DNA of 64,000 nucleotides from Acidimicrobiales bacterium (lineage in GTDB: Bacteria > Actinomycetota > Acidimicrobiia > Acidimicrobiales > SZUA-35): the NCBI GenBank assembly GCA_020630195.1, contig JAHDBV010000007.1, positions 1-64,000 on the forward strand, written 5' to 3'. Position numbers and translations under genes: made by a program. This document shows, in pieces, positions 1,264-11,194 of this stretch. The notes below the pieces were generated by a model. The model saw only the letters and a program-made list of their open reading frames with translations, did no database searches and was not told where the DNA came from. Each line of letters begins with the position of its first letter. The stretch's first letter is position 1.

Positions 1264-4146
1264 ATGGAACTCTCCAAGTACCCCCCGTTCGAGCAGTGGC
1301 ACGACTGGACCGAACTCGACGCCAAGGCCTGGCCCGAGAAGGTCGAGCGCAACTACACCCTCGTGCCCACCACCTGCTTCAACTGTGAGGCCGGCTGTGG
1401 GCTCGTCGCCTACGTCGACAACGAGAACGGCGAGGTCGCCAAGATCGAGGGCAACCCGGAGCACCCGGGTTCCCGTGGCCGCAACTGCGCCAAGGGCCCC
1501 GCGACGCTCAACCAGATGACCGACCCCGAGCGGGTCATGTACCCGATGAAGCGGGTGGGGGAGCGCGGCTCGGGCCAGTGGGAACGCATCTCGTGGGACC
1601 AGGCCCTCGACGAGGTCGGCGGGAAGATCCGCGAGGCCTTCGACGCCGGCCGCAAGAACGGGGTGATGTACCACGTCGGCCGCCCCGGTGAGGACGGCTA
1701 CACCGACCGGGTCCTCAAGGCCTGGGGTGTCGACGGCCACAACTCCCACACCAACATCTGCTCGTCGAACGCCCGCATCGGGTACCAGAGCTGGATGGGC
1801 CACGACCGCCCGTCGTCCGACTTCGCCAACGCGAAGGTGATCTTCCTGATCTCGGCCCACCTCGAGTCGGGCCACTACTTCAACCCCCACGCCCAGCGCA
1901 TCATGGAGGCCCAGGCCAACGGGGCGAAGATCATCGCGTGCGACCCGCGCCTGTCGAACACCGGCGCCAAGGCCGACTACTGGTTGCCCACCTGGCCCGG
2001 CACCGAGCCGTACCTCCTGCTCTCGATCGCCCGCCTGCTGATCGAGTCGGAGACCTGGAACGCCGAGTTCATGCAGCGGTGGACCAACTGGGAGACCTAC
2101 CTCCGGGCCAAGCACCCCGACCGTCCGGTCGAGTGGGAGCAGTTCCGCCCCGCCCTGCTCGAGGAGTACGCCGAGTACACCCCCGAGGCCGCCGAGCAGA
2201 AGACGGGCGTGGCCGCCGAGACGATCCGCGAGATCGCCGAGCTGATCGGGGCCAACCCCACCAAGTTCGCGTCGCACAACTGGCGTGCCGCCGGTGCCGG
2301 TCACCTCGGTGGCTGGCAGGTGGCCCGCTGCCTGTTCTTCCTGAACGTGCTCACCGGCTCGGTCGCCACCGTCGGCGGCACCGCCGGCAACGGCATGAAC
2401 AAGTTCAAGCCGGCCGCACCGATCGGTGCCCCGAACACCCACGAGTGGAACGACCTCGAGTGGCCGGCCGAGTTCCCGCTCGCCTACCACGAGATGTCGA
2501 TCCTGCTGCCGCACTTCCTCAACGAGGGGCGGGGCACGCTCGACGTCTACTTCAGCCGGGTCTACAACCCGATCTGGACCAACCCCGACGGGTTCACCTG
2601 GATGGAGGCGCTCACCGACGAAGAGAAGGTGAAGTGCCACGTGGCGCTCACCCCGACCTGGTCGGAGACGTCGTGGTTCGCCGACTACGTGCTGCCGATG
2701 GGTGTGGCCACCGAGCGTCACGACATCCACTCCTACGAGACCCATGCCGGTCGGTGGATCGGGTTCCGCCAGCCCATCGGGCGGCGCTACGCCGAGCTGC
2801 GTGACCGGGCCGAGGGCGGCTCGGGTGAACTCGGCCCCGACGCCCGCTCGTACGACTACAACGTCGGCGAGGTCTGGGAGGAGAACGAGTTCTGGATCGA
2901 TCTGTCGTGGCGGATCGACCCGGACGGCTCCCTCGGTATCCGCGAGTGGTTCGAATCCGAGACCCACCCCGGCAAGCCGCTCACCATCGACGAGTACTAC
3001 GCCCGGATGTTCGCCGACAGCGTGCCCGGCCTGGCCGACGCCGCGGCCGAGGCCGGTCAGACCCCGCTCGACTTCATGCGTGACCGCTCGGCGTTCGCCG
3101 TGCCGACCGACCCGTACGAGCCCTACGAGCGGGCGGTCGCCGACGATGCACTCGACGGGTGTGAGGTCGACGACCGCGGGGTCTACCGCAAGCCCGGCAC
3201 GGCGGGATCGTGGGACGGCGACCTCGGCGGCCTCGACGATCTGAAGCTCCAGCCGCTCGGCGACGGCTCGCCGGCCGTCTCGATCGACGGTGAGGCGAAG
3301 GAGGGCTTCCCGACGCCGTCGAAGAAGCTCGAGCTCTACTCCGAGACCCTCGCCGACTGGGGTTGGCCCGAGTACGCCACCCCGACGTGGATCCCCTCAC
3401 ACGTGCACTGGGAGGACATGGATCTCGCCGGCAACGAGCGCATCCTGTTGCCGACGTTCCGGATCCCGACCCTGATCCACACCCGGTCGGCGAACTCGAA
3501 GTGGCTCAACGAGATCTCGCACCGCCATCCCCTGTGGCTCCACCCCTCCGACGCCGAGCAGCTCGGCATCGAGGAGAACGGACTCGTGCGGATCACCACC
3601 CGGATCGGGCACTTCGTGATCCAGGCGTGGCGTACCGAGGGCATCCGTCCCGGTGTCGTCGCCGCCTCGCACCACATGGGTCGCTGGCGCCTCGAAGAGG
3701 ACAAGGCCCGCTCGTGGGGTGCCGGGAAGGCCTCGATCCAGAGCTCGAAGAACGCGGAGGGCGGCACCACGTGGTCGCTGAAGCGTGAGCACGGCAACGA
3801 GTCGTACGACTCGTCCGGATCGGCACAGACCGACGCCGACACCGGCCGGATCTGGTGGAACGACACCGGTGTGCACCAGAACGCCACGTTCTGCGTGCAG
3901 CCGGATCCGATCTCGGGCATGCAGTGCTGGCACCAGCGGGTGCGGGTGACACCGGCCGAGGCCGGTGACGAGTACGGCGACGTCGTGGTCGACACGGCGA
4001 AGAGCCGTGAGGCCTATCTCGACTGGATGTCGAAGACCCGGCCCGCCGGCACGGCCACCGCGGCCGGCGCCGCCGGTCTGCGACGTCCGCTCTGGTACGC
4101 CCGACCGCTCAAGCCGAACCCGAGCGCCTACCGCATCCCCGAGTGA
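1264..4146 (+). CDS. Molybdopterin-dependent oxidoreductase catalytic subunit (DMSO reductase superfamily)
   Basis: N-terminal CxxCxxxC-type cluster motif (TTCFNCEAGCGLVAYV...GRNCAKG), HTNICSSNARIGYQ, and C-terminal molydopterin-dinucleotide-binding region. No twin-arginine signal. 26 nt after the FeS-NrfD gene. Confidence 0.88.
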   Translation: MELSKYPPFEQWHDWTELDAKAWPEKVERNYTLVPTTCFNCEAGCGLVAYVDNENGEVAKIEGNPEHPGSRGRNCAKGPATLNQMTDPERVMYPMKRVGERGSGQWERISWDQALDEVGGKIREAFDAGRKNGVMYHVGRPGEDGYTDRVLKAWGVDGHNSHTNICSSNARIGYQSWMGHDRPSSDFANAKVIFLISAHLESGHYFNPHAQRIMEAQANGAKIIACDPRLSNTGAKADYWLPTWPGTEPYLLLSIARLLIESETWNAEFMQRWTNWETYLRAKHPDRPVEWEQFRPALLEEYAEYTPEAAEQKTGVAAETIREIAELIGANPTKFASHNWRAAGAGHLGGWQVARCLFFLNVLTGSVATVGGTAGNGMNKFKPAAPIGAPNTHEWNDLEWPAEFPLAYHEMSILLPHFLNEGRGTLDVYFSRVYNPIWTNPDGFTWMEALTDEEKVKCHVALTPTWSETSWFADYVLPMGVATERHDIHSYETHAGRWIGFRQPIGRRYAELRDRAEGGSGELGPDARSYDYNVGEVWEENEFWIDLSWRIDPDGSLGIREWFESETHPGKPLTIDEYYARMFADSVPGLADAAAEAGQTPLDFMRDRSAFAVPTDPYEPYERAVADDALDGCEVDDRGVYRKPGTAGSWDGDLGGLDDLKLQPLGDGSPAVSIDGEAKEGFPTPSKKLELYSETLADWGWPEYATPTWIPSHVHWEDMDLAGNERILLPTFRIPTLIHTRSANSKWLNEISHRHPLWLHPSDAEQLGIEENGLVRITTRIGHFVIQAWRTEGIRPGVVAASHHMGRWRLEEDKARSWGAGKASIQSSKNAEGGTTWSLKREHGNESYDSSGSAQTDADTGRIWWNDTGVHQNATFCVQPDPISGMQCWHQRVRVTPAEAGDEYGDVVVDTAKSREAYLDWMSKTRPAGTATAAGAAGLRRPLWYARPLKPNPSAYRIPE

Positions 4147-9438: not shown

Positions 9439-10500
9439 TCAGCCGAGACCGGGGATCACACAGGCCTGGTCGGTCTCGACGGCGACGGTGACGGCCCGGT
9501 TGCGGTGGGGGCCGGTCGACCAGGTCGTGAATGCCGCCGAATAGAGCCCGGCCCCACCGGCGACGAACACGAGCAGATCCTCGGCGTTGCGGAACACCGG
9601 GCGGTCCCGGCCGTTCGCACGGAACGGGCTGGCCGACGCATCGAGGGCGGTGGCCGACACGACGGCCCGCTCGACGACGGCGTCCCGGGCGCCCGACCGG
9701 GAGTAGCCGGCACGGGCCAGCACCGCGGCATGGTCCGGGTTGAGGGCGAGGGCGGCCTGACCACCGCCGAGCGCGGCGTTGTTGTTGGCGATGTTGGAGA
9801 ACGCCGCAGCGAGGCTGAACAGGAGCCGCTCGACCTCGTCGGGGTCGTCGGCGTCACCGGAGGCCATGATCGAACTCGGCGACTCCGAACCGAGCACCGT
9901 CACCGCCGACTGGTCGGCGTCGAAGCCGAGGTCGGTGTGCATCGGCGCCCACGGGCTGTTCGCCTCGTCTTCGGCGAGGCACATCGTGAACTTGCCGCCA
10001 TGCCCGAGCAGCGCCATGTCCGACGAGCCCGAGCGACCACCACCGATGTTGATCATCGCGAGCCGCAGGGCACGACCGATCGCGGCGTTGGCCCGGTGCC
10101 CCGGACCGAGCGCACCGAAGCCGCCGCGCACCCCGCAGTTCCGTGCGGCCGGGCCGTTCACGATCACGAGCGGCGACGTGGCGTGCGTGGTGGCCTGCAT
10201 CTCGGTGAGGTCGAAGCGGGGATCGATCACGGCCTGCGCGGCGGCCACGACGATCGGCATGTGATCGGGCAGGCAGCCGGCCATCACGGCGCAGGTGGCG
10301 AGCCGATCGAGGGTGCAGTCGCCGAGGTTCGGTCCCATGGCTCCGAGCGACAGATCGCCGTCGATCCCGGAGGCGAGAACGAGCCGAGCGACCCGCTCCG
10401 GGGTCGGCACGATCACGGGGAGGCCGTCGGTGCAACCGAGCTCGTGCAGCCGTTCGACCGCCGCGAGCTCATCGGTGGCGTGCAGGACGTCGGTGCTCAT
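9439..10500 (-). CDS. Conserved protein of unknown function, overlapping the UGSC selenoprotein gene (ATGA)
   Basis: Intact 353-aa ORF with clean coding composition. Start ATG (10500-10498) overlaps the TGA stop (10499-10497) of the upstream gene. Cys-containing motifs GCTDGLPV, GCLPDHMP, NCGVRGG. Confidence 0.75.
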   Translation of the reverse strand: MSTDVLHATDELAAVERLHELGCTDGLPVIVPTPERVARLVLASGIDGDLSLGAMGPNLGDCTLDRLATCAVMAGCLPDHMPIVVAAAQAVIDPRFDLTEMQATTHATSPLVIVNGPAARNCGVRGGFGALGPGHRANAAIGRALRLAMINIGGGRSGSSDMALLGHGGKFTMCLAEDEANSPWAPMHTDLGFDADQSAVTVLGSESPSSIMASGDADDPDEVERLLFSLAAAFSNIANNNAALGGGQAALALNPDHAAVLARAGYSRSGARDAVVERAVVSATALDASASPFRANGRDRPVFRNAEDLLVFVAGGAGLYSAAFTTWSTGPHRNRAVTVAVETDQACVIPGLG

Positions 10501-11048
10501 CGGTCGTCGCCGGCGAACGCACCGAGGATCTCGTCGACGATGCCGGCGGCGATCGTGGCCATCGTGTCGTCCCCGGTGCCCGCCACGGGGTGGGGGAGCC
10601 GGATCCGGGGGATGTCGGGCATCCCAGCCGCTCGGGCGACGAAGTCGCCCTGGGCCCAGAAGTCGTCGGTCACGAGCGCCACGGCGGGGAGGCCGAGGCG
10701 GGCGAACACGATGCCGTCACGCACGGTGCCGGTGGTGCAGCTGCCTCAATGCCCGTAGGCGGCGACGACGGCACCGCATCGGTCGCGCAGATCGTCGATC
10801 ATGGCGTCGGAGACGACGGTGGTGGGGTCGCCCTTGTCGGCGAAGACGAACTCGGCGTCGGGCAGCGCCCGAGTCAGTGCCGCCTCGACGTGATGGAGGA
10901 ACTTCGCCGAGTCGGGGAAGCCGTTCGCCAGCAGCCCGATCCGCACACCCGGCGCCGACGGATCGATCGACACGTCGTAGGGGTCGGTGGCCAGGCCCGG
11001 CTCGGCCCGGGGATCGAGGAACGTGATCTGATCGGTGATGGTCGTCAT
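10497..11048 (-). CDS. UGSC family selenoprotein (in-frame TGA at 10746-10748 read as selenocysteine)
   Basis: Two ORF-track fragments (10746..11552 and 10497..10724) are in the same frame, separated only by TGA. Read through: MTTITDQITFLDPRAEPG...DLRDRCGAVVAAYGH-U-GSCTTGTVRDGIVFARLGLPAVALVTDDF... No start/RBS is needed between halves. Confidence 0.85.
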
Positions 11049-11194
11049 CGTTGCCGCGGCCTCCGTGTCGTCGGCTGGCGCGTCGGGTCGGGCGACGAGC
11101 CACAACGGTCGGGTCGTTGCCCGGTCCGATGAGCGACGGTAGGTCGCGGCATCGTCGGTCGTCGACTCGTCGGACACGGCCGGTTCTTCGGTTG

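Follow-up and report, generated by a model that had tools for sequence, protein, structure and literature searches.

A UGSC-family selenoprotein gene in an Acidimicrobiales genome, its near-obligate partner gene and a likely remote kinship to the selenocysteine domain of GrdB/PrdB

The minus-strand gene described here, found in a 64,000-nucleotide stretch of Acidimicrobiales DNA (the window), is a new member of the known UGSC selenoprotein family. The best explanation of the evidence as a whole is that it encodes a genuine UGSC selenoprotein forming half of a two-component, selenolate-dependent reductive-cleavage enzyme, a reading to which a probability of roughly 0.6 is given. New in this study are an undescribed, near-obligate partner protein, designated NB353, and a likely remote homology of UGSC to the selenocysteine (Sec) domain of GrdB/PrdB. 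The Sec codon, the decoding machinery, the SECIS element, the partner linkage, a natural fusion and the remote homology were all identified computationally. The features concerned are collected in Table 1.

Table 1. Coordinates of the UGSC gene, its signals, its partner gene and the partial tRNA-Sec gene (window positions unless a contig is named)
Feature	Position	Strand	Details and evidence
UGSC-family selenoprotein gene, 183 aa, Sec101	10497..11048	minus	ATG 11046-11048, stop TGA 10497-10499; translation, PF24696 E 8.7e-42, orthologs 47-64% identity
TGA codon read as selenocysteine (U101)	10746..10748	minus	TGA in 30/30 orthologs, Cys homologs, sel machinery
Cys104 of U-G-S-C, resolving-type, codon TGC	10737..10739	minus	Invariant in 24/24 aligned UGSC proteins
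Predicted SECIS hairpin CYG.CAC-CGUGC-GUG.CRG	10714..10732	minus	14-32 nt after UGA; codon invariance and paired cells
GGAGG, likely ribosome-binding site	11060..11064	minus	11 nt before UGSC ATG; sequence
NB353 gene, 353 aa, undescribed family	9439..10500	minus	ATG overlaps UGSC stop (ATGA, 10497-10500)
tRNA-Sec gene, 5' part, anticodon TCA (L143)	G000:C64:1-54		Gene cut by contig end

As the preliminary description had proposed, a single minus-strand frame of 183 codons is interrupted by one TGA, and the codons it quoted downstream of that TGA agree with the sequence. With the TGA read as U, the frame translates as MTTITDQITFLDPR...CGAVVAAYGH-U101-GSC-TTGTVRDGIVFARLGLPAVALVTDDF...GDDR and runs on to a true TGA stop. 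Open stretches of at least 100 codons before and about 80 codons after a TGA were counted 125 times in this GC-rich window, so in-frame abutment is common and homology must carry the selenoprotein argument. The Pfam profile of the UGSC family, PF24696, matches the read-through product end to end, crossing the TGA (residues 11-178 of 183, profile positions 3-170 of 172), and at 143.6 bits the whole-length match lies above the gathering score of 25 bits, in accord with the family identity suggested earlier. The NCBIfam UGSC model, NF041046, scores 105.7 bits, under its equivalog cut-off of 125 bits, and the window protein is not an equivalog of that model in the strict sense. The motif [U/C]-G-S-C is present as U101-G-S-C104, in which residues 101, 102 and 104 do not vary across 24 members.

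Relatives of the protein were found widely within the order. PF24696 matches occur in 150 of 298 genomes of the same order, nearly all of those listed carrying exactly one in-frame TGA and few having a Cys form. When the window protein itself served as query, 62 of 397 genomes yielded relatives, mostly at 47-64% identity, and each listed relative contains one TGA except for two partial matches. At the Sec site TGA is retained in all 30 orthologs, with no TAA or TAG. Cysteine occupies the site in the distant homologs L025, L026, L027 and L041, which come from a Rhodospirillaceae MAG (51% identical), Sphingobium subterraneum, a Cryobacterium MAG and, for L041, the same order. Divergence at the three codon positions after the TGA is 0.23/0.09/0.43, a pattern of coding constraint downstream. 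The end-to-end PF24696 match, the Cys homologs and the constraint past the TGA at both the protein and the nucleotide level therefore indicate more than chance abutment, and there is hardly any doubt that the TGA encodes selenocysteine. Three other UGSC proteins (L033, L034 and L039) were seen to have about 90 additional C-terminal residues.

The genome behind the window (G000), which is 82% complete, encodes the machinery for selenocysteine incorporation. Contig C113 has selA (392 bits) and selB (250 bits) next to each other and C185 has selD (354 bits), all three scoring above curated cut-offs. A first tRNA-Sec scan of this genome returned other tRNAs only, and ARAGORN run around selAB found only a tRNA-Pro. 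The partial tRNA-Sec gene was detected only with the same-genus locus (G107) as DNA query: the first 54 bases of contig C64 are identical at 54/54 positions to the 5' part of the G107 gene, anticodon included. A tRNA-Sec with anticodon TCA was present in all ten same-family genomes with UGSC, and in G071, the sole same-family genome tested that has no UGSC, no tRNA-Sec match rose above the threshold. In G214 and G191 the tRNA-Sec likewise sits at a contig end, and the gene may adjoin something that is hard to assemble. The selD gene (L018, G000:C185:34867-35790) has an in-frame TGA of its own near the N-terminus, in SHGAG-U-ACK at the usual active-site position, and the SelD of this genome is probably itself a selenoprotein.

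Evidence for a SECIS element in the window subfamily comes from codon usage. In 60 codon columns the residue is the same in 28 or more of the 30 orthologs. Among these, only codons +6 to +10 after the UGA (GGC ACC GTG CGT GAC; 10716-10730) are each a single codon in 30/30 orthologs, and such one-codon invariance was seen in 0 of 51 conserved columns lying beyond +1 to +11. As judged from these alignments, the constraint at +6 to +10 is on RNA and not on protein. The hairpin predicted over the invariant codons has 100% paired cells across the orthologs, and at one of its pairs nine of 22 distinct sequences have U-A in place of C-G, both sides having changed, which may represent no more than one or two events. 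The paralogs, meaning the other UGSC genes, have a different and longer hairpin of 8 bp at a nearly equal distance from the UGA, in which both sides of four pairs have changed and whose covariation score was reached by 0 of 500 shuffles. Folding tests on the 42 nt that follow the UGA, of single-sequence and synonymous-codon type, gave no excess stability in the window subfamily (mean z -0.06), and the same tests in the paralogs did show it (mean z -1.37); for the window subfamily the informative test is codon invariance and not folding energy. The Rfam model SECIS_1 gave no match in this genome, nor in the control genomes.

Two readings of the TGA other than selenocysteine were weighed. That it is a true stop, leaving a truncated gene, a pseudogene or two ORFs, would agree with the frequency of frame juxtapositions in the window and with the NF041046 score below cut-off. 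It is already contradicted by the retention of TGA in every ortholog to the exclusion of TAA and TAG, by the coding constraint beyond the codon, by the SECIS constraint and by the full sel machinery, and can be given hardly any weight. A general reassignment of TGA, for instance to Trp, or an assembly error, is more improbable still, with nothing seen in its favour: TGA also terminates the UGSC gene, the homologs have Cys and not Trp at the site, and the same TGA recurs in independent genomes. Recurrence in other subfamily members from such genomes also rules out the raw-read error that the preliminary description had named as a possible objection. Its other two objections, missing sel genes and homologs that all end at this position, likewise did not hold, as selA, selB, selD and a contig-end portion of tRNA-Sec were found, and relatives carry either the same TGA or, as in the 51%-identical homolog, Cys. 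The selenoprotein interpretation thus stands.

The gene directly 3' of UGSC, which the preliminary description had passed over, encodes NB353, for which no sequence match was found in Pfam, NCBIfam or the PDB. Of 29 orthologs, all 29 have an NB353 homolog immediately 3' of UGSC and on its strand, and in other UGSC subfamilies NB353 usually precedes UGSC. Over 298 genomes, both genes occurred in 146 and neither in 146, with UGSC alone in four and NB353 alone in two (Fisher P about 1e-77, which is no strict probability since the genomes are related). Two of the four UGSC-positive genomes in which NB353 was not detected are 94-96% complete. No NB353 adjoins L028 (G242:C70), which scores highest of the UGSC matches in the order, nor was one detected elsewhere in its genome, which is about 96% complete. 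In the third UGSC gene of the window's genome (L060, G000:C163:17305-17826 and following), UGSC is fused to an NB353-like domain in one ORF of 576 aa with an in-frame TGA. It is very likely that UGSC and NB353 constitute a two-component module. The second UGSC paralog of this genome (L058/L150, G000:C149:10480-10977) is of the UGSCTSC type and is preceded by an NB353 homolog of its own (C149:9399-10427).

The families enriched in the neighbourhood beyond this pair were all of very common kinds, short-chain dehydrogenases for example. The wider gene neighbourhoods are not conserved and therefore name no substrate. The Cys-containing loci have among their neighbours glutamine-synthetase-like enzymes, an amidohydrolase and an NMT1-like binding protein; these are suggestive, but only suggestive, of small nitrogen compounds. 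A structure model of NB353 was of moderate confidence (pLDDT 73). Foldseek matched it consistently to class I fumarases (E 4e-4), but with a TM of 0.28 and an rmsd of 17 A, and an hhalign comparison with FumA scored 15.3 against 15.7 +/- 3.3 for shuffles; kinship to fumarase was rejected. Elsewhere in the window, on the plus strand at 1264-4146, there is a 960-aa molybdopterin oxidoreductase with Fe4S4 and dinucleotide-binding domains and no in-frame TGA.

An AlphaFold model of UGSC, built with four sequences, is Rossmann/flavodoxin-like at good confidence (pLDDT 84.7) and places U101 directly ahead of a helix; a thioredoxin fold was not what it predicted. The best Foldseek matches to this model are flavodoxin-like at TM values of about 0.4-0.5, which are not close. 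A PDB sequence search with the UGSC protein gave nothing significant, and neither PF07355 nor any thioredoxin-family Pfam profile matched any of 24 UGSC members at E 10. The PF07355 (GRDB) profile ends ahead of the Sec in the GrdB/PrdB members seen, and every PF07355 match that was examined in related genomes breaks off at a TGA. When read through, these matches prove to be GrdB (ILTAT-U-GTGTRC) and PrdB-like (LLVPV-U-PVCHQ) selenoproteins. An hhalign comparison of UGSC with these read-through C-termini gave a probability of 94.9 and an E of 4.3e-8 over about 87 columns, with Sec aligned on Sec. Its score of 56.6 compares with 13.0 +/- 2.2 (maximum 17.9) in 60 column shuffles, and an unrelated control profile gave an E of 0.1. 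Earlier comparisons with shallow profiles had reached probabilities of 22-51, the value of 94.9 being obtained with deeper, domain-trimmed profiles. On this profile evidence UGSC is likely to be a remote homolog of the Sec domain of GrdB/PrdB, although homology over about 87 columns does not by itself prove the same reaction. No earlier report of this link was found in the literature searched, which, in the portions available, handles UGSC as a family of its own.

Among the top 25 Pfam neighbour families listed, none was named GrdA, GrdE or PrdA. The genome behind the window also contains three PrdB-like genes (L081, L148 and L149 on G000:C2, C142 and C24) that match the C-terminal half of PF07355 and continue past a TGA as [LI][LTV]P[VI]-U-P[VL]C. 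Full-length GrdB selenoprotein genes (L071-L077) were seen elsewhere in the order, in genomes with no listed UGSC, and possibly no genome has both UGSC and full-length GrdB.

In GrdB and PrdB the Sec selenolate attacks a small substrate, which is cleaved reductively. By analogy, a working hypothesis held at about even odds is that UGSC-NB353 catalyses reductive cleavage. The UGA is almost certainly decoded by SelB and Sec-tRNA(UCA), aided by the predicted in-frame SECIS hairpin downstream. The UGSC product would form half of a two-component enzyme, a subunit with a predicted flavodoxin-like alpha/beta fold and Sec at the helix start after the central strand. For the translationally coupled NB353, we infer that its most likely task is to bind or activate a small substrate. 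A carbon of that molecule would be attacked by the Sec selenolate, with reductive cleavage of a C-N or similar bond. Cys104 would presumably form a selenenyl sulfide with the oxidised Sec and so resolve it, and a thiol donor would carry out the recycling. A more far-reaching proposal, put forward tentatively and at somewhat less than even odds, is that UGSC and NB353 represent an unrecognised two-component branch of the GrdB/PrdB superfamily, widespread in one order and acting by selenolate-dependent reductive cleavage, in which NB353, as an undescribed subunit that binds the substrate, replaces the pyruvoyl subunit GrdE/PrdA.

Other functions have also to be considered. UGSC-NB353 might be a selenolate-based transferase, isomerase or metal/ligand-handling protein that shares with GrdB/PrdB only a scaffold with Sec at a helix start, as might be argued from the confinement of the homology to about 87 columns and from an NB353 that has no known relatives. 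This is thought unlikely, because the alignment of Sec on Sec, the conservation of a second Cys and the rarity of Cys forms relative to Sec favour chemistry at the Sec. Alternatively, UGSC could be a thioredoxin-like thiol/selenol oxidoreductase, its UxxC acting as a CxxC-type box in the reduction of disulfides or peroxides, with NB353 as a dedicated substrate protein. A 2026 review groups UGSC with the Trx-fold selenoproteins (PMC13188914), and U-G-S-C does have the UxxC spacing. The predicted order of strands and helices is Rossmann/flavodoxin-like, however, with no thioredoxin among the best 50 Foldseek matches, the profile homology is to GrdB/PrdB, and the Pfam search of the 24 members found no thioredoxin family; a thioredoxin-like function accordingly appears rather improbable. 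Of the redox-like UxxC box in the preliminary description, the spacing is retained, but the box is an analogy only, as fold and remote homology favour GrdB/PrdB-type selenolate chemistry over a thioredoxin box.

The reading preferred here, a selenolate-dependent reductive-cleavage enzyme of two components, gives UGSC a concrete and testable hypothesis of function through the partner gene, the natural fusions and the GrdB/PrdB link. That link and the flavodoxin-like model together question the assumption of a thioredoxin fold, which the 2008 survey had proposed for UGSC (PMC2398784). In the environment, UGSC proteins rank with the most common selenoproteins, with a role open since that survey (PMC2398784), and the 2026 review still places them with the largely uncharacterised selenoproteins (PMC13188914), in agreement with the earlier remark that their role is not established. 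In the window's own genome, gene callers that treat TGA as a stop truncate three UGSC genes, the three PrdB-like genes and selD.

Compared with the UGSC family as known (PF24696/NF041046; the 'UGSC-containing protein' of the GOS survey, PMC2398784), the window protein has the same full-length Pfam match, Sec in U-G-S-C, rare Cys homologs and similar size. It differs in belonging to a subfamily, YGH-U-GSC-T[TS]GTVRD, that has its own SECIS and places UGSC before the partner gene, in lacking the third Cys of the many UGSCxxC paralogs, and in falling below the NF041046 equivalog cut-off. That survey also describes a conserved domain, 'Unknown_1', fused to UGSC in GOS metagenomes (PMC2398784, Figure S1), to which the fusion in L060 can be likened by description only. 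UGSC-motif selenoproteins of Geodermatophilaceae, as cited in PMC5330540, share the motif class and an actinobacterial host, but there Sec is encoded by UAG and the tRNA-Sec anticodon is CUA, compared with TGA and TCA here. With the Sec-bearing C-terminal domain of GrdB/PrdB-like proteins (PF07355), UGSC appears to share Sec after a hydrophobic strand and ahead of a helix, an AGIPT-like strand entry, a later P-x-P/P-x-G stretch and, for PrdB-like members, a second Cys; it differs from them in having neither a PF07355 match nor the GrdB N-terminal domain, and in a partner, NB353, that matches no described family.
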